From contig NZ_CP012410.1 of assembly GCF_001274535.1 (NCBI RefSeq), positions 1,275,126 through 1,339,125 on the forward strand: 64,000 bases of DNA, written 5' to 3'. The position numbers and the translations under genes are program-made. The DNA comes from Leptotrichia sp. oral taxon 212 (GTDB lineage Bacteria > Fusobacteriota > Fusobacteriia > Fusobacteriales > Leptotrichiaceae). Below, piece by piece: positions 19,784 through 28,673 of the stretch. Numbering within the stretch: the first letter of the stretch is position 1; every line of letters begins with the position of its first letter. The notes beneath the pieces were generated by a model, which saw only the letters and a program-made list of their open reading frames with translations, searched no databases and was not told the origin of the DNA.

Positions 19784-20854
19784 TTATTTAGTTTTATTTT
19801 CTTCACTCATGGCAATTTTATAATATTTTTTTGTTAACAATTCATCTGCTTTTATTTTACTTTTTATAAAATTATTACTATATAGAAAATCTATAAGGCT
19901 TGTTATTTTATTTTCAGTTTCCTTTTTTATTTCAGGATTAAAATTTTCAAAGGTAAAATCTTCTGAGTAAGCTTTTTTAAATATATCTGCAGGAATTCCA
20001 CTCCTAGCATAAATTTCAAATGCCTTTTCAGGATTTTTAGCTGTAAATTCTTTTGCTCTTTTTAATGCTTTTATTATTGCAACAGGTACTCTTTCATTTT
20101 TTTCCAGATATTCATTTCTTCCTACAACTAGACTTTGAGAAGAAATTTCAGGTTTTTCTATTGTTGAATATATAACTTTTCCTAGTCCCTTTGATTCCAT
20201 AAATAGTACATTGTAATAAAATCCAAAAAGTGCATCTGCCTGTTTTGAAGAAAATACTGAAAGTGCTTCTGATCCTACTGCATTTATCGTTTTGAATTTA
20301 TTTTTATCTAAATGATATGCTTCCAATACATTTACAAAAAATCTATTTTGTACAGTTCCTTTTCCATATATCACTTTTTTTCCTTCAAGATTCTTTATAT
20401 CTTTAATTCCGCTATTATTTTGTGCAATCACTCCAAACTGTAATCTTAAATTATCTACTGCAAATACTTTTATATTAATTCCTCTACTTTTAAGTACAGT
20501 TATAGGCAAATCACCATACATGGCAATATCTATTTTATTAGCTGCAAAAGCTTCATTTAAGGCCGGACCTGCTTGCTGAAAATAAATGTATTCTACTTTA
20601 TAACCTTCCTTTGACAGCTCTTCTTCAAAATATTTATTTCCAATTGCAACTCCTCCAGCTTCAAGTATTGTGTTGGAAATTCCAGGCAACCCTATTCTTA
20701 CTACTTTTTTTTCCCCATCTGAACTAATCTTCTCTTCATTTTCTGTTTTAACAAATTTTAATCCGCCTAAAGAAAGTATAAACAGTAATACAAGAGCAAA
20801 TATAAGTTTTATCTTCTGTATTTTTAAGTTAACCAATTCTTTTTCCCCTTTCAT
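19784..20854 (-). CDS. ssuA: ABC transporter substrate-binding protein, sulfonate/taurine type
   Basis: The 356-residue protein belongs to the SsuA/TauA/NMT1 family, with VVRIGLPG at the mature N-terminus, FAANKIDIAMYGDLP and a late FYSARSGIPADIF-type segment (IYARSGIPADIF). These bind aliphatic sulfonates, taurine or related organosulfur compounds outside the membrane. The N-terminal hydrophobic segment lacks a lipobox Cys, so it is either released or stays anchored by its helix. ATG 20854 shares its A with the stop of the ATPase gene; the TTG at 20836 has AAAGGGG eight bases upstream and may be the true start. It is the last gene of the sulfur operon. Confidence 0.85.
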   Translation of the reverse strand: MKGEKELVNLKIQKIKLIFALVLLFILSLGGLKFVKTENEEKISSDGEKKVVRIGLPGISNTILEAGGVAIGNKYFEEELSKEGYKVEYIYFQQAGPALNEAFAANKIDIAMYGDLPITVLKSRGINIKVFAVDNLRLQFGVIAQNNSGIKDIKNLEGKKVIYGKGTVQNRFFVNVLEAYHLDKNKFKTINAVGSEALSVFSSKQADALFGFYYNVLFMESKGLGKVIYSTIEKPEISSQSLVVGRNEYLEKNERVPVAIIKALKRAKEFTAKNPEKAFEIYARSGIPADIFKKAYSEDFTFENFNPEIKKETENKITSLIDFLYSNNFIKSKIKADELLTKKYYKIAMSEENKTK

Positions 20855-21627
20855 TATATTTTGTATTCTATATCAGGAATTTTATTTTCAAAGAAATATT
20901 CATGAATCTTATTTTTATAATTTAGAAATTCAGTATTAGTTCTGTCCTTATTTCCCTGAATATCAATTTTTACTATATCTCTTATTTTTCCAGGTCTTTC
21001 AGACATTACAACTACTCTATCACCTAGATAAACTGCTTCTTCTATATCATGAGTAACAAGTATCATTGTTTTATTTTTTTCCTTCTTTATTTTTTTAACT
21101 TCTTCCTGCATCTGTATTTTTGTCATTGCATCCAATGCTCCAAAAGGTTCATCAAAAAGTAATATCTCTGAATTTACTGCAAGTCCTCTTGCAATGGCTG
21201 CTCTTTGTGCCATTCCTCCTGAAAGTTGTTTTGGATACATGTTTTCAAAACCTTTTAAACCAACCAGTTCAATATATTCATCTATAATTTTCTTTTTCTC
21301 TTCAAAGTTATTATTTTCAAGACCTAAAGAAACATTTTCCTTTATTTTCATCCATGGAAGAAGTCTAGCATCTTGAAACACTATCGAACATTCTGCCCTA
21401 CTCCCTTTGACAGTTTCATTATTTATAATTATTTCCCCTTCACTTACTTCTATCATTCCTGAAATCATTTTTAGCAATGTACTTTTTCCACATCCACTTT
21501 TTCCTACAATTGTAATAAATTCACCTTTTTCAATCCCTAGGCTAATATTATTAAGTACACTAATTTCAGTGTTTTTATTTACATATTTTTTAGAAACATT
21601 TTTTATATCTATTATACTCAAAATCAT
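20854..21627 (-). CDS. ssuB: ABC transporter ATP-binding protein, sulfonate/taurine type
   Basis: The 257-residue ATPase has Walker A (VGKSGCGKSTLLKM), Q-loop region (VFQDARLLPWM, the DxRLLPW form typical of SsuB/TauB/nitrate importers), signature LSGGMAQRAAIARGL, Walker B (ILLFDEPFGALDAMT) and the switch His (LVTHDIEEA). It powers import together with the permease at 21717-22466 and the binding protein whose start overlaps its stop codon. Assignment to the sulfonate branch rests on these motifs and on neighbours (sulfite reductase and arylsulfotransferase-like genes); nitrate or aromatic sulfate esters are alternatives. Confidence 0.9.
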   Translation of the reverse strand: MILSIIDIKNVSKKYVNKNTEISVLNNISLGIEKGEFITIVGKSGCGKSTLLKMISGMIEVSEGEIIINNETVKGSRAECSIVFQDARLLPWMKIKENVSLGLENNNFEEKKKIIDEYIELVGLKGFENMYPKQLSGGMAQRAAIARGLAVNSEILLFDEPFGALDAMTKIQMQEEVKKIKKEKNKTMILVTHDIEEAVYLGDRVVVMSERPGKIRDIVKIDIQGNKDRTNTEFLNYKNKIHEYFFENKIPDIEYKI

Positions 21628-21716: not shown

Positions 21717-22466
21717 TTAATTATACTTCCATGACATTATTTGCTGTGCAAACAAAGTAATTATCTTATCCATCAGTACTCCTGTAATTCCTATTACAAT
21801 CATACATACAATTACTACATCTGATTTCATGAGACTTCTTGCATCATTCAAACGATATCCTATTCCTGAAGAAGATGCAACAAGTTCAGCTGCGACTACT
21901 GCCATCCACGACGCACTTAATCCAAGTCTCAATCCAATAAATATATTTGGAAGAGCTGAGGGTAAGTATACTTTAAAAAATGTATCAATTTTATTTAATT
22001 TATAGGCTTTTGCAAGTTCAAGGTAATTTTCAGGTGTAGAATCTATTCCATTTATTGTATTAACTATTATTGGAAATGTAGCCGCAAAGAAAATTACTGT
22101 TATCTTTGAAATTTCCCCTATTCCTGTCCATAATATTATAAGTGGAATCCATGCCACCATTGGTACTTGTCTTATTGAAGTTAAGGAAAATAACATAGTT
22201 TCCTTTATTCTTTTTGATATTCCCATTGTAATACCTATTGATATTCCTAATATACTTGATATAATGTATCCTCCCAATACTCTTCTTATACTTATTCCTA
22301 AATCTGAATAAAGCTGTCCTGTCTTAAGCATCTCTACAAATGCTGTTTTTACCGAACTTAGCTTAGGTAAAGCAGTTTCTGGAATATTACCTAAATTTGT
22401 AGCAGTTAACCATAAAACTATTATAAATACAGGAAAAATAAATTTTATATAATTGTCTTTCTGCAT
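21717..22466 (-). CDS. ssuC: ABC transporter permease, sulfonate/taurine type
   Basis: The 249-residue membrane protein has about six helices and the BPD_transp_1 coupling motif near residues 170-195 (ALPNIFIGLRLGLSASW). Family marks include RVLGGYIISSILGISIGI and WIPLIILWTGIGE. It forms the membrane channel for SsuA/SsuB. GAAAGGAG precedes the start. It lies 31 bases after the arylsulfotransferase-thioredoxin gene, so the importer and the enzyme are co-expressed. Confidence 0.9.
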   Translation of the reverse strand: MQKDNYIKFIFPVFIIVLWLTATNLGNIPETALPKLSSVKTAFVEMLKTGQLYSDLGISIRRVLGGYIISSILGISIGITMGISKRIKETMLFSLTSIRQVPMVAWIPLIILWTGIGEISKITVIFFAATFPIIVNTINGIDSTPENYLELAKAYKLNKIDTFFKVYLPSALPNIFIGLRLGLSASWMAVVAAELVASSSGIGYRLNDARSLMKSDVVIVCMIVIGITGVLMDKIITLFAQQIMSWKYN

Positions 22467-22497: not shown

Positions 22498-24294
22498 TTA
22501 TAGAAAAGACGAAAGAAACTTCATCAGTTCTTCATACGTTTTTTCTCCACTTGTTCTCGCTAATTCTGTTTCATACTTTGAAACAATCACAGTTGGTATT
22601 CCCCTTATACCTTTTTCCTGTGTCAGATTAGGATTTTTATCTACATCTATATATTTTGCTTCTATCCTATTTCGAAAGTCTGACTGAATCAACTTTTCTA
22701 TCACAGGATAAAGTTTTTTACAATGTGAACATCTTTCTGCTCCAAAAAGAACTAGTTCAAGCTTGTCATTTTTTAAAATCTCTTCTTCGCTTACTTCTGT
22801 AAATAAATCTCTATTTACTTTGAACAGCTTTTCTCTATTTCTTAATTTATCAGTTTCATCTATCTTTGCAACACACAAAGCACCTGATTCACTATATGGC
22901 AATGTTCCTTCTACTGTTATTACCTTCTTAGCTCCAAACTTACCTGCATTAGGCAATCTATATGTCGTTATATCTAATGGTTCTATTGCTATTTCTTCAG
23001 GTATTTCTTCTTGAGGAACCCAGCTATATGGATATCTGTATCCTCTATAAATCATATTATTTATTGGATCTTCATCTTTACTATTACTGAAATATGGAGA
23101 AATCCATTCCCATACTATTTCTTTCTCATAAGTTACTTCTATCAGTCTTCCGTTAGAACCTTCATCTATCAGAGTGTTGCCATTAGGTAGTCTTTGTGCA
23201 CTACTAACATACGGACTATAAAATTTACTTGCATCTGTAGGAATTCCAGCTCTTATTGATTCAGGAGTAAACTGCCATACTATTTCTAAAGTTATAGGAT
23301 TAATCTCAAGAACTCTGGAATAATCTCTCCATACATTCTTAGTACCATCTTCACTCACAGTATTTGGAACACCATATCCCCCCCATCCTCCATTATCAAA
23401 CACAAGTATATTACCTTCCCCTGGAAGACCTTCAGGTATAAGATGGGTATGGTGTGGCCCTATTATATAACCTATATGCTTTATATTTTCATCATCCCAG
23501 TTTGGTCCTATTTTCCATACAATTTTCCCTGTTTTTTTTGATATAATTGCCAAAAAGTTAGCTTCACGACTGTCAAATATTATGTTTTCAGGATGAAATC
23601 TTTCGTCTCCTTCATTATATCTTTTATTTGGTCCTAAGTAGCTCATACAATTTATATGAAGCCAGTCTCCAACTCCGCCATCAGACTCTCTTATGTTAGG
23701 ATTTTTATAAATTGTTTTCTTCGCTTCTTCACTGAAACCTATTTCATCAAAATGCTCATTTGCATGCCATTCCCATAAAATATTTCCCTCCCAGTCTACT
23801 TCATAAAAAACATCATCTAATAATTTTTTATCACTAATTTTTTCATTTCTGACTGTTTTATGTCCTAAAATCAATGTTTTCCCTTCTCTTAAAAGCGGAT
23901 TTTGTTCAGGTACATAATATCCTACAGGATTCCCTTCTCTCTGATAATCATGATGAGTTCTTGCCATCCATTGGGCTTCATTTCCTTCATCTTCAATAAA
24001 TTCAAATCTATTAAATTTCCATACTATATTTCCATCATAATCTATTTGAACAAGATCCACTCCATCCTGCATTCCATATTTTGGATCTCTGTCTCCGGAA
24101 TATCCAATTAAATCTCCATTTGGAAGAAGTTTATTTGGAAAGCCGTGAAATTGCTCCCATCTTCTTATTTCATTTCCATTCATGTCAAACAGTAATGCCC
24201 CTGAATTAATTGTAGGTACTAAATTATAGCCATTCCAGCATTTTTCAGGCTTATAGATTGTCACTCCTGTAGGAAATATTGTTGGTTGTCCCAT
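22498..24294 (-). CDS. Arylsulfotransferase-like beta-propeller fused to thioredoxin domain
   Basis: The 598-residue protein has two parts. Residues 1 to about 480 match the arylsulfotransferase (ASST) propeller: repeated DxxGNIxW blades, DWLHINC (His213), GPHHTHLIPEG (His281-His284), LVFDNGG, and DYSRVLEI (Arg327). Residues about 500-598 are a thioredoxin fold with a CSHC active site (522-525) and the cis-Pro loop GIPT. No signal peptide is present, whereas classical ASST enzymes act in the periplasm, so this one should be cytoplasmic. Where the E. coli enzyme has its nucleophilic third His I see SAQRLPNGNTLI without His. Placed between the importer genes and a sulfite reductase, it may release sulfite from an imported organosulfur compound; this is inference. 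Confidence 0.85.
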   Translation of the reverse strand: MGQPTIFPTGVTIYKPEKCWNGYNLVPTINSGALLFDMNGNEIRRWEQFHGFPNKLLPNGDLIGYSGDRDPKYGMQDGVDLVQIDYDGNIVWKFNRFEFIEDEGNEAQWMARTHHDYQREGNPVGYYVPEQNPLLREGKTLILGHKTVRNEKISDKKLLDDVFYEVDWEGNILWEWHANEHFDEIGFSEEAKKTIYKNPNIRESDGGVGDWLHINCMSYLGPNKRYNEGDERFHPENIIFDSREANFLAIISKKTGKIVWKIGPNWDDENIKHIGYIIGPHHTHLIPEGLPGEGNILVFDNGGWGGYGVPNTVSEDGTKNVWRDYSRVLEINPITLEIVWQFTPESIRAGIPTDASKFYSPYVSSAQRLPNGNTLIDEGSNGRLIEVTYEKEIVWEWISPYFSNSKDEDPINNMIYRGYRYPYSWVPQEEIPEEIAIEPLDITTYRLPNAGKFGAKKVITVEGTLPYSESGALCVAKIDETDKLRNREKLFKVNRDLFTEVSEEEILKNDKLELVLFGAERCSHCKKLYPVIEKLIQSDFRNRIEAKYIDVDKNPNLTQEKGIRGIPTVIVSKYETELARTSGEKTYEELMKFLSSFL

Positions 24295-24353: not shown

Positions 24354-25972
24354 TTATCCTTCTTTAAAGAAGGAGATTCCATATTTTTTTATTAAATTAT
24401 CAAATTCATTTTTTTTCATATATTCTTCATAGCTGATATTTCCATTTTTTAAAATTGTGGCCAGTTCTTCAAGAAAAAATGGTATTTGTTCAGATTTTAT
24501 TTCTCCTATATTTTTATTTAATTTTACAATTTTTCTATTTCTGAATTCTCCTCTTGCAAATATATTAAAATATATTCCATCTTTTTTAAGTTTCCCCTGA
24601 AATCCCAATTTTCCAATTTGATGAGCTGCACAAGAATTAGGACATCCTGAAAAATTAAGTTTTGGAAGATAATCAACAAGTCTCTGTTTATTTTTAAAAT
24701 ATTTCAATATTTCGTCCAGAATTGTCGGTGTATCAAGTATTCCAAGATTACATACAGATTTTCCTATACATGAATAGGAATTAAAAAATTCTTTTTTTGA
24801 AAATTTTCTATTTATTTTTTTTAATTTCAAAGCATCTTCCTTTATTAGCTTTCTAACAAAAATTTCCTGATTACTTGTCAACCTCATTTCAATTTCATAA
24901 TTTAGTTTTTTTAGGAAAGATATTATTTCTTTGCCTATTTCCTGGTTAATATCGCCTTTTTCAGGTCGTATATAATATCCATATTCAGCTTCGTATTTCC
25001 CCTTTATTAGATTATAATCTGTCTTTTTCTTAAATATTCCTTCATTATTAGAAAACCTTTTCCCAGCATTTTCTTTTTTATTTTTTCTCTTTCTTCAATT
25101 AATTTTTTCTCTGTTATTTTTTTATATCCATCTCCTATATTTTCATGTACTTCATCTAAATATTTATTATATAAATTTAAAAATTCTTCTTCTCCTAAAT
25201 TTATAATTATATATCTTATCCTTGCTTTTGCCTTAACTTTTCTATTTCCATGCTCAGAAAATAGATTTCTCATTGCTCTCACGTGATAAAGAATTTCGTT
25301 TTCCTTTATAAAATCCCTTAAAATCATAGCTTCTTTTGAAACTGGTCCTAGCCCTCCTCCACCATAAACGGTAAATCCTTTTTTTCCATTTTTTTCTACA
25401 GCCAGAAATCCTAAATCTGATATTTTTACATATGTTGAATTTTCTTCTTTATTTGCAAAAGCAATTTTATATTTTCTTGGTAATCCCATATAGTCATCGC
25501 TCGAAAGTATGTGTTCTGTGACTATTTTATTATGAGGTGTCACATCGAATATTTCTTCTTCAAAACCTGAGGAAGATGGCGCAATGACGGCTCTTGCTGA
25601 ATTTCCTCCTGTAGCTTTTGTAAAATATTCTTTTTCAGATAATTTTTCCAATAATTTATGAATATTTTCTCTTTTTACTCCATGAAGCTGTATATCCTGC
25701 CTTGTTGTTAAATGAAGTCTTCCATCTCCATATTTCAATGCTAGTTTTAATAAAAATTCTAATTTATCAGTTGTAATTTTTCCTTCTAAAAATCTAGGTC
25801 TTATCATATATGTTCCTCTTTTTCCCTCTGTATAGATTCCATAAGAAGTCCTTATTTCATTCCATTCTTTTTCCTTTTCCTTATTTTTCAAGCCATCTTT
25901 TGATAATTCTGAGATTTTCAAAAAGCTTCTTTTTTCTTTTTCCTCTAAAATTTCTTCTTCAAGTTTTTTCAT
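24354..25972 (-). CDS. Sulfite/nitrite reductase family protein, interrupted by a one-base frameshift
   Basis: Two frames together encode a full siroheme/4Fe-4S reductase of about 538 residues. The first (25972 to 25007) holds the N-terminal ferredoxin-like part (MIRPRFLEGKITTDKL, LTTRQDIQLHGV, TGGNSARAVIAP) and the first catalytic repeat. The second holds the second ferredoxin-like part (YYIRPEKGD) and the cluster ligands CIGKSVC (C-x5-C) and GCPNSCAAHQ (C-x3-C). The frames join at 25058-25064, where the minus strand reads GGGAAAA; re-reading one A restores the protein. This is either a lost A in a run (mutation or sequencing error) or -1 frameshifting. TGGAGG precedes the start. Reduction of sulfite to sulfide is inferred from the sulfonate importer downstream. 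Confidence 0.8.
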
Positions 25973-26066: not shown

Positions 26067-26093
26067 AAAAAAATCCGAATATTTCTATCCGGA
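26067..26093 (-). terminator. Attenuator terminator in the sulfur operon leader
   Basis: On the minus strand TCCGGATA and TATTCGGA pair (eight pairs, one G-U) around a GAAA tetraloop, followed by seven T. It lies about 95 bases before the sulfite reductase start and downstream of the leader peptide, so it would stop transcription before the operon. Confidence 0.8.
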
Positions 26094-26144
26094 CTTACAC
26101 AGGAATATCTATTAATAAAATCCTGTTTAATGATTGTATATGCT

Positions 26145-26242
26145 TCCGAATAGACTAATTTATTTCAAACAAAAAAGTCTATTCAAAGCAGCTTATAATT
26201 AATTCTGTAGAATTAAAAACATTTAAACTGTTGTATAGACTA
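26145..26242 (-). promoter_or_regulatory. Antiterminator/anti-antiterminator segments of the attenuator
   Basis: Four segments alternate on the minus strand. Segment 1, AGTCTAT (26241-26235), overlaps the leader stop codon. Segment 2, GAATAGACT (26184-26176), can pair with segment 1 (7 bp) or with segment 3, AGTCTATTC (26156-26148, 9 bp). Segment 3 extended, CTATTCGGA (26153-26145), can instead pair with TCCGGATAG (26093-26085), the 5' arm of the terminator. Thus 1:2 favours 3:4 and read-through, while 2:3 leaves the terminator free. Confidence 0.65.
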
Positions 26243-26323
26243 GAACCACATACACATTTCGTTTATTAAATTTTTATATATAAATATGTTTTCTTTTTTT
26301 ATTATCAATTTTGTAATATTCAT
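26240..26323 (-). CDS. Leader peptide (27 residues) of the sulfur operon
   Basis: A short ORF starts at ATG 26323, seven bases after AAAGGGAGG, one of the best ribosome-binding sites in the window, and ends at TAG 26240. The peptide begins MNITKLIIKK and ends NEMCMWF. Its only Cys codon, TGT, lies four codons before the stop. Stalling there would leave segment 1 of the attenuator exposed, whereas a ribosome at the stop codon would cover it. This fits cysteine-responsive transcription attenuation of a sulfur assimilation operon. The mechanism is inferred from sequence; Met or Trp sensing is a weaker alternative. Confidence 0.65.
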   Translation of the reverse strand: MNITKLIIKKENIFIYKNLINEMCMWF

Positions 26324-26372: not shown

Positions 26373-26400
26373 ATAATATCACAAAATATATAATTTGTAA
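26373..26400 (-). promoter_or_regulatory. Possible promoter of the sulfur operon
   Basis: TTACAA and TATTAT on the minus strand, 16 bases apart, lie about 50 bases before the leader peptide start. The surrounding sequence is very AT-rich, so this choice is tentative. Confidence 0.35.
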
Positions 26401-26448
26401 AATATATTATTATTATTTTTTCTATTAATTATATAAATATATATCTCT

Positions 26449-27284: not shown

Positions 27285-28673
27285 CTATCCTGACAATCTG
27301 CTATATCTACGAGTTGAATCAGGAAAATCCATGCTCATTGCAAATGAGGAAATCAGGAAAAATATTACTCCTGTTACAAAAGCAGTTCCATAATCTAAAG
27401 TTTCAGGAATTGAAGTAATTCCAGATGGAAAAAGCATCACAATAAGCCCCAAAAAGTACATTCCTACACTGAACCACTGATATATTCTTAAATTCCCTAT
27501 TATTTTTGTCAGAGGTTCACCCCTATATGCTTCCTCAATAAATCTTGTTATTCCTGCTCCAATTAAATATAAACCTATTATTATCGTATATTTTACTCCG
27601 CTAATCCAGTAAAATAAAAGTATAATTTCCAACATTACATTTCCAATGATTGAATATAAAGGGGTTGGATATATTGGGACACCGCATTTATGTGACAGTG
27701 CGCAAACTCTTGAATGAGGATTATTTACAACTATTCCATGTCCTTCCTCTGTATTATCCCCATGACAGCACCCCTGTATCAGGCATCTTATCCTTCCTAC
27801 AGCCTGCGCAACAGGTGATGCAATTGCAAAAGCTCCTAGAACTTTAAATATTTCAGGATAAAAAATGGAAATCATAAGTCCGGTCGCTGACACTCCAAAT
27901 AATGAACCAAAATATCCGAAAGGTCTGCTGAGCCTATTTGTAGAACCAACCAGTATCTGTCCTATGATTGAAGCTCCAATTAAACCAATGAACATTAAAA
28001 TTACAATATAAATAGAGTATTTTCTTCCTAAAATAAGTGTAATAATACCAGAACCTATTCCACCCGCAAGTCCTGAATACAGAAAGTGATTTATTATTCT
28101 AAGTTTTCCAAACCTCCATGATTTCCAGCTGTTTGCCCTGTTTTCAGCCCATTTTAATAAAATATTCCATAATTTATTCAATCTGAAAATCTTGACAAAT
28201 GGCCTTGAAATATTGGAAATTCCCAAAATAGGATGCGGAACTTTTTCAAAATTTTTTTTGAGATATAAATTTTCATATCCTAACACGAGTGCCATGCATC
28301 CACCTATTATAACAAGAGTAACCAGATAAAGTCCTGCCGCTGATTTATAAAATATAGAAATTCCGATACACATAATACAGAAACCAAAATATATTGGATG
28401 AGGAAAAATACCGTATATTCCATCCTCTACAAGCTCTTCAGGGGGAAAAGCATTCATTGGAAGCCCCTTTCCTTTTACCTTCAGTTCATACATTCCTCTT
28501 ATTATTATCGCTAACCCTATTATAGCCATAACTGAACCGCCATAACCTAATTCTGAAACTTCAAAAGGCAAAGAAACACTGTTTGCCAGAAAAATGAAGT
28601 ATAATGGCAATACTAATATGAAAAAAGTTCCATATAATATCTTCTGTAATTTTATTTTCTGCGATTTTATCAT
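27285..28673 (-). CDS. Fusion of isoprenylcysteine/phospholipid methyltransferase-like domain and Lgt-like domain
   Basis: The 462-residue protein is polytopic. The N-terminal third (to about residue 160) resembles small membrane methyltransferases of the ICMT/PEMT type, with GIYGIFPHPIYFGF followed by GYENLYLKKNF. The C-terminal two thirds resemble prolipoprotein diacylglyceryl transferase: GRIRCLIQGCCHGD, PIYPTPLYS and GITRFIEEAYRGEPL correspond to Lgt motifs (GRxGCFxNGCCYG, PTPLYE, RFxxEFxRxD). The Lgt-like part has changes at conserved positions, so it may act on a different lipid or acceptor. Its ATG overlaps the TGA of a decayed ORF (ATGA). The fusion is unusual. Confidence 0.75.
   Translation of the reverse strand: MIKSQKIKLQKILYGTFFILVLPLYFIFLANSVSLPFEVSELGYGGSVMAIIGLAIIIRGMYELKVKGKGLPMNAFPPEELVEDGIYGIFPHPIYFGFCIMCIGISIFYKSAAGLYLVTLVIIGGCMALVLGYENLYLKKNFEKVPHPILGISNISRPFVKIFRLNKLWNILLKWAENRANSWKSWRFGKLRIINHFLYSGLAGGIGSGIITLILGRKYSIYIVILMFIGLIGASIIGQILVGSTNRLSRPFGYFGSLFGVSATGLMISIFYPEIFKVLGAFAIASPVAQAVGRIRCLIQGCCHGDNTEEGHGIVVNNPHSRVCALSHKCGVPIYPTPLYSIIGNVMLEIILLFYWISGVKYTIIIGLYLIGAGITRFIEEAYRGEPLTKIIGNLRIYQWFSVGMYFLGLIVMLFPSGITSIPETLDYGTAFVTGVIFFLISSFAMSMDFPDSTRRYSRLSG

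Follow-up and report, generated by a model that had tools for sequence, protein, structure and literature searches.

Bacterial arylsulfotransferases (ASSTs) work via sulfo-His436, and their physiological role and natural acceptors were described as poorly understood in a 2026 review (PMC13426309). In a 64,000-nt stretch of the genome of Leptotrichia sp. oral taxon 212, referred to here in its entirety as the window, an ASST-like propeller is joined to a thioredoxin domain in one reading frame, beside genes for an ABC importer and a siroheme reductase. The question raised by this locus is what such an enzyme would do inside the cell, and to which acceptor it would pass the sulfuryl group. We found no papers on ASST-thioredoxin fusions in the open literature. 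Our analysis leads to the answer that the enzyme probably removes the sulfur of sulfate esters once these are imported into the cell, and passes it as sulfite to cysteine synthesis.

Domain organization of the fusion protein

A single ORF, at exactly 22498..24294 on the minus strand, encodes the 598-aa fusion. Residues 1 to about 440 (22975..24294, minus strand) form the ASST-like propeller, which matches Arylsulfotrans PF05935 in Pfam (E 2e-20, 73.6 bits against a cut-off of 24.2) and contains H115, H213, N215, R243, H281 and T374; the domain score and the equivalents of His436, His356, Asn358 and Arg374 place the protein in the ASST superfamily. Residues 500-598 (22498..22797, minus strand) match Thioredoxin PF00085 (E 3e-16, above cut-off), with the CxxC motif C522-SH-C525 and a cis-Pro region at I566-P567. 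No hydrophobic segment was found at the N-terminus, so that the protein is without a signal peptide; the relatives in the family share the start MGxPTxxPTG. The Ig-like domain PF17425, present in the classical ASST of locus L019, was not detected in the fusion by Pfam, and the protein therefore has neither of the two marks of classical periplasmic AssT, the export signal and PF17425. No match to PAPS_reduct PF01507 was found in it either. The first-pass annotation, which had described an ASST-like propeller with a CSHC thioredoxin domain and no signal peptide, was correct on these points.

An AlphaFold2 model of the fusion gave a mean pLDDT of 83 and a pTM of 0.73. The closest solved structure to the propeller is Cpz4 (9kf4/9kf6; E 6e-17, TM 0.58 on target, 16% identity), and the C-terminal part of the model resembles thioredoxins with TM of about 0.85-0.9. 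Consistent with a thioredoxin domain, C522/C525 and the cis-Pro region are invariant in the 14 fused proteins. Since these 14 copies, from Fusobacteriota, Pasteurellaceae and a Bacillota MAG, all keep the CxxC, the fusion is real and not an artefact.

The active site of the propeller

Sequence search gave no direct alignment between the window protein and E. coli ASST. Classical ASSTs (PF17425+PF05935) that adjoin unfused relatives in Peptococcaceae MAGs were therefore used as a bridge, with numbering on PDB 3ELQ. The bridge proteins align with 3ELQ with His356, Asn358, Arg374 and His436 in register, and when the family is compared with them at profile level (97% probability, E 1e-10), H213, N215, R243 and H281 of the window protein fall on these four residues. 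Among 37 close relatives, H114, H115, D116, H213, N215, R243, H284 and T374 are invariant, and H281 is found in 36, the remaining sequence having an ambiguous letter at this position. H115 and T374, both among the invariant residues, match His252 and Thr501 in motif but are not reliably aligned with them by hhalign. By these alignments the ASST active site of the window protein is intact. The third catalytic His had been reported as apparently lost, and the loss read as support for a changed reaction; neither statement stands, as the His356 and His436 equivalents are H213 and H281, both conserved in close relatives, and H115 fits His252 by motif, so that no catalytic His is missing.

A conserved cysteine in the tail

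The linker between propeller and thioredoxin domain is modelled with low confidence at residues 442-472, and at its end lies C474 (codon 22873..22875, minus strand). This cysteine is present in 36 of the 37 close relatives, fused and unfused alike, in a tail that is otherwise variable: across columns 440-488 only R446 and P448 also reach 36/37. In many unfused proteins its equivalent lies near the C-terminus, as in SFCVQAEDE and GFCLAIEEE. It is absent from one fused copy (L012) and from distant unfused relatives. Outside C522/C525, the cysteines of the window protein are C19, C216 and C474, of which only C474 is conserved.

APS/PAPS reductases load the sulfo group onto a Cys, and sulfite is then released with the help of a CxxC partner of thioredoxin fold. 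By analogy, C474 recalls the mobile sulfo-accepting Cys of these enzymes. In plant APR, S-sulfocysteine is formed and sulfite is released with a fused C-terminal CxxC domain (PMC9426629).

Neighbouring genes for import and sulfite reduction

Downstream of the fusion on the minus strand lie genes for an SsuC-like ABC permease (21717..22466; PF00528, with SaoP, SsuC, NtrB and TauC models below cut-off), an SsuB-like ABC ATPase (20854..21627; Pfam and subfamily models) and an SsuA-like substrate-binding protein (19784..20854; PF09084, with TIGR01728 at 112 bits against a cut-off of 163.5). These genes match models of the SsuABC, TauABC and NtrABC type with scores below every curated cut-off, and their identity as a sulfonate importer is not established. 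Upstream, a siroheme sulfite/nitrite reductase (sir) is present as two ORFs on the same strand, an N-terminal half (25007..25972; PF03460+PF01077) and a C-terminal half in another frame (24354..24887) with the siroheme/4Fe-4S Cys motifs. The halves are split by a single frameshift near 25020 in an A-rich stretch, for which real decay, slippage and sequencing error cannot be told apart. In G016, a relative of the same family, a whole 490-aa reductase ORF is found at the same place (L034). Elsewhere, the Leptotrichia genome encodes another NIR/SIR protein (L096:4631-6232; G000 C1, about 1.0276 Mb), which is intact at 533 aa and has the siroheme Cys motifs. The placement first proposed for the fusion, between SsuABC-type genes and a sulfite reductase, is thus confirmed, as are the gene types, with the qualifications that the importer matches fall below cut-off and that the reductase is frameshifted in this genome.

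A SAO (selenocysteine-assisted organometallic) system was also considered and rejected, as the SaoA and SaoP matches were below cut-off and no other scanned gene belongs to a SAO family. Elsewhere in the window, the ORF at 27285-28673 (minus strand) combines a phospholipid-methyltransferase-like N-terminal part with an LGT (prolipoprotein diacylglyceryl transferase) C-terminal part, an unusual pair.

A candidate cysteine attenuator ahead of the operon

The 5' leader of the operon (26401-25972, minus strand) contains a 27-codon ORF, MNITKLIIKKENIFIYKNLINEMCMWF (26240..26323, minus strand), which has a strong ribosome-binding site and a product ending in EMCMWF. It is followed by a terminator-like hairpin with a U run (26071..26096, minus strand), between the leader ORF and sir. 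A possible promoter, TTTACA-17-TATTAT, lies at 26373..26401 (minus strand); such promoter-type matches are no commoner in the region than in its shuffles. No Rfam riboswitch or T-box matched the leader at gathering score, and the one match found was at chance level.

Counterparts were found in relatives. The otherwise diverged operon leader of G016 encodes MENKINIINYNMCMCSRRV (NMCMCSRRV), with a terminator, directly ahead of sir. A motif search identified a peptide ending in LMMCMC, with terminators, ahead of the cysteine synthase gene cysK in G016 and in G008, a second member of its genus. An M-C-M-C-like leader ahead of cysK was absent from the window genome and from the other Leptotrichia-type genomes examined. 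The leader 12-mer ATGTGTATGTGK was counted 16 times in 12 genomes and its reversed control 10 times, which makes the string weak evidence by itself; the argument rests on the intergenic copies of the 12-mer, 4/6 of which fall within short ORFs upstream of sir or cysK. The arrangement has the features of a leader attenuator, namely a short ORF with Cys codons and a terminator, placed ahead of biosynthetic genes and recurring in relatives. Cys-codon leader peptides ahead of cysteine operons are known in Actinobacteria (PMC1262725). We consider the window leader and its counterparts a candidate cysteine attenuator in Fusobacteriota, a function inferred from sequence features. The Cys-codon leaders ahead of this operon, of sir in G016 and of cysK in G016 and G008 point to a function of the operon in cysteine supply.

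Distribution of the family

The family was found in 8 of 98 Fusobacteriota genomes, with 10 copies, all fused, and in 2 of 140 Pasteurellaceae genomes, where both copies are fused and followed by ssuCBA-like genes. The Pasteurellaceae copies are the nearest to the window protein (77% and 74%), and in the tree the three proteins form a fully supported group that is separate from G016; this suggests transfer between phyla. The tree is compatible with a single origin of the fusion but does not demonstrate it. The order ASST-Trx/SsuC/SsuB/SsuA is the same in Ursidibacter, Lonepinella and G016.

The first-pass annotation asked whether the fusion always travels with SsuABC and siroheme reductase genes in anaerobes. 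The association is not constant: in Cetobacterium-type genomes a carrier of the SLC13/Na-sulfate-symporter type is encoded in the cluster of the fused gene, and the Pasteurellaceae copies have no adjacent reductase. Nor is it confined to anaerobes. In Paenibacillus, an unfused copy precedes the genes of an ABC importer, of which the ATPase and the permease are similar to the window SsuB and SsuC, so the link between ASST and importer extends more widely. Unfused copies, up to five per genome, are found in 16 of 46 genomes of the class to which the Peptococcaceae MAGs belong; LysR-like regulators and SLC13/CitMHS carriers lie near them, as do classical ASSTs in some cases. No stand-alone thioredoxin gene was found beside unfused relatives in the loci examined.

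A thioredoxin-reductase-like gene is present in nearly all fused-copy clusters of the Cetobacterium type (L035, L036, L037, L038, L075, L076, L094). In L037 (10219-11361) and relatives, the thioredoxin reductase adjoining ASST-Trx is extended at its C-terminus by about 65 aa that contain no CxxC, possibly a docking domain. The cluster of L094, which includes the SLC13 carrier and NhaC, is located on the 231-kb plasmid p2 of Cetobacterium somerae, a possible route of ASST-Trx spread. In Mailhella (Desulfovibrionaceae) MAGs (L025, L026, L030, L032), several distant ASST paralogues are arrayed in one region.

Sulfur metabolism of the carrier genomes

Domain searches found no PF01507 protein (APS/PAPS reductase) in the Leptotrichia genome, in G016, G040, G056 and G059, or in the incomplete G065, whereas NIR_SIR proteins occur in every one of them. 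A single PF01507 protein was found in each of G052 and G064, and CysH-sized ones in the Pasteurellaceae carriers, so in these genomes the ASST-Trx system need not be the sole route. In the Leptotrichia genome, no sulfatase (PF00884) scored over cut-off. SsuD, previously noted as missing, is not recognisable there, and two luciferase-family proteins match other subfamilies in NCBIfam.

Proposed reaction and alternative explanations

We propose, with somewhat better than even confidence, that the fusion, a member of the ASST superfamily, acts in the cytoplasm in a thiol-dependent way, converting a sulfate ester to sulfite via His281, C474 and thioredoxin and so feeding cysteine synthesis. The parts that this proposal brings together (domains, ASST residues, tail Cys, CxxC, partner genes, leader ORF and terminator) can be read in the sequence itself; the sulfate-ester substrate, the S-sulfo-C474 intermediate and the sulfite product we infer. 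The pathway would begin with the import, by the SsuABC-like transporter, of an organic sulfate ester, most probably an aryl ester or another with a good leaving group. Its sulfuryl group would be transferred onto His281 of the propeller with release of the alcohol or phenol, and from there to Cys474 on the mobile tail, forming S-sulfocysteine. Attack on S-sulfo-C474 by C522/C525 of the tethered thioredoxin domain would yield sulfite and a disulfide, the latter to be re-reduced by thioredoxin reductase. The siroheme reductase would finally convert sulfite to sulfide for cysteine synthase. Such a pathway would follow the scheme of plant APS reductase, a transfer domain followed by a CxxC domain, but on an ASST scaffold and without the use of ATP sulfurylase or ATP. 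For a dithiol to reduce sulfate to sulfite, about 47 kJ/mol of activation must be supplied. This speaks for an aryl sulfate or another that is activated; simple alkyl sulfates might not suffice. The earlier idea of cytoplasmic, oxygen-independent sulfur release with thioredoxin as thiol or electron partner is supported by the tail Cys, the neighbouring thioredoxin reductases, the Cys leaders and the lack of a PAPS reductase. Several observations run counter to the proposal: C474 is missing in L012 and in distant unfused relatives, the operon sir of this genome is frameshifted, its own cysK shows no Cys-codon leader, and some carriers have PF01507 proteins. Moreover, we know of no ASST that uses a thiol acceptor.

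The intact catalytic residues would also suit an ordinary cytoplasmic ASST, which passes the sulfuryl group of an imported ester to a small acceptor while thioredoxin keeps a Cys reduced or has a regulatory role, the sulfur not being assimilated. The closest solved fold, Cpz4, is a transferase in antibiotic synthesis, and the unfused relatives have no thioredoxin gene nearby. We nevertheless regard this explanation as unlikely, given the Cys-codon leader and sulfite reductase within the same gene run, the thioredoxin reductase neighbours, and the conservation of C474, but not C19 or C216, beyond C522/C525. Alternatively, the sulfite might be drawn from a sulfonate, as first suggested, or from an S-sulfo compound (thiosulfate, S-sulfocysteine or polythionate), which would fit the SsuABC-like importer and adjoining sulfite reductase; thioredoxin would suit S-sulfo substrates. 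ASST chemistry, however, is the transfer of sulfuryl groups from O-esters, and to our knowledge no ASST member cleaves a C-S bond. The transporter scores lie below every cut-off, the carriers at other loci are of the SLC13 type, and relatives adjoin classical ASSTs, so that we think this source quite improbable. The sulfonate part of the idea is weakened in particular: because the active site is intact, unfused relatives lie beside classical ASSTs, and the importer is SsuABC-like or SLC13-type, a sulfate ester is the likelier substrate.

It is very improbable, in our estimate, that the operon is what is left in this strain of a system undergoing decay. The frameshift in sir would agree with decay, and the second intact NIR/SIR protein makes the operon copy dispensable, but the reading frames of the fusion and of the three transporter genes are unbroken, a sequencing error in the A-rich stretch may account for the frameshift, and the G016 reductase is whole. 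Returning to sulfite release from a sulfate ester, its extension to the family as a whole is more tentative, with chances just short of even: an ATP-free sulfate-ester reductase in which thioredoxin, in cis in the fused proteins or in trans in the unfused Bacillota proteins, releases sulfite. Host- and gut-associated bacteria would thereby draw the sulfur of cysteine from phenol sulfates, with no need for PAPS, a sulfatase or oxygen. The hosts of the family are oral, gut, termite-associated or fish-associated where a source is named, presumably places with phenol sulfates. If true, oral and gut bacteria would turn host and diet phenol sulfates into sulfite and sulfide, and this route would go unnoticed in surveys for sulfatases or PAPS reductases.

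Comparison with known systems

The window protein is an ASST variant, real and conserved, for which a testable new reaction may be proposed. It shares with EcAST/AssT (3ELQ; PF05935) the propeller domain and the equivalents of His356, Asn358, Arg374 and His436, and by motif probably those of His252 and Thr501, but differs in having no signal peptide and no detected PF17425, and in its thioredoxin fusion, tail Cys and cysteine-supply context. For an enzyme class in which role and acceptor are the questions, the gene context offers one of each, cysteine supply and C474 as a candidate acceptor residue, both testable. Cpz4 (9kf4/9kf6) is the best fold match to the propeller and matches in sequence around R243 and H281; unlike the proposed enzyme, it sulfates caprazamycin in antibiotic synthesis, and its 472-aa solved chain is covered by the propeller of the window protein only. 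The importer has the same subunit set as SsuABC, TauABC and NtrABC, with family-level matches, whereas the window genes score below all curated cut-offs and the genome has no recognisable SsuD.

The closest parallel in the proposed mode of action is with plant APR and with bacterial CysH and thioredoxin, where the sulfo group is held on a mobile Cys and a CxxC partner of thioredoxin fold, fused in plant APR and separate for CysH, frees the sulfite. The window protein differs from both in its fold (no PF01507), in that no Fe-S cluster motif was seen, and in the proposed substrate, an ester rather than a nucleotide. With plant APR it shares the same order of parts, on another fold.
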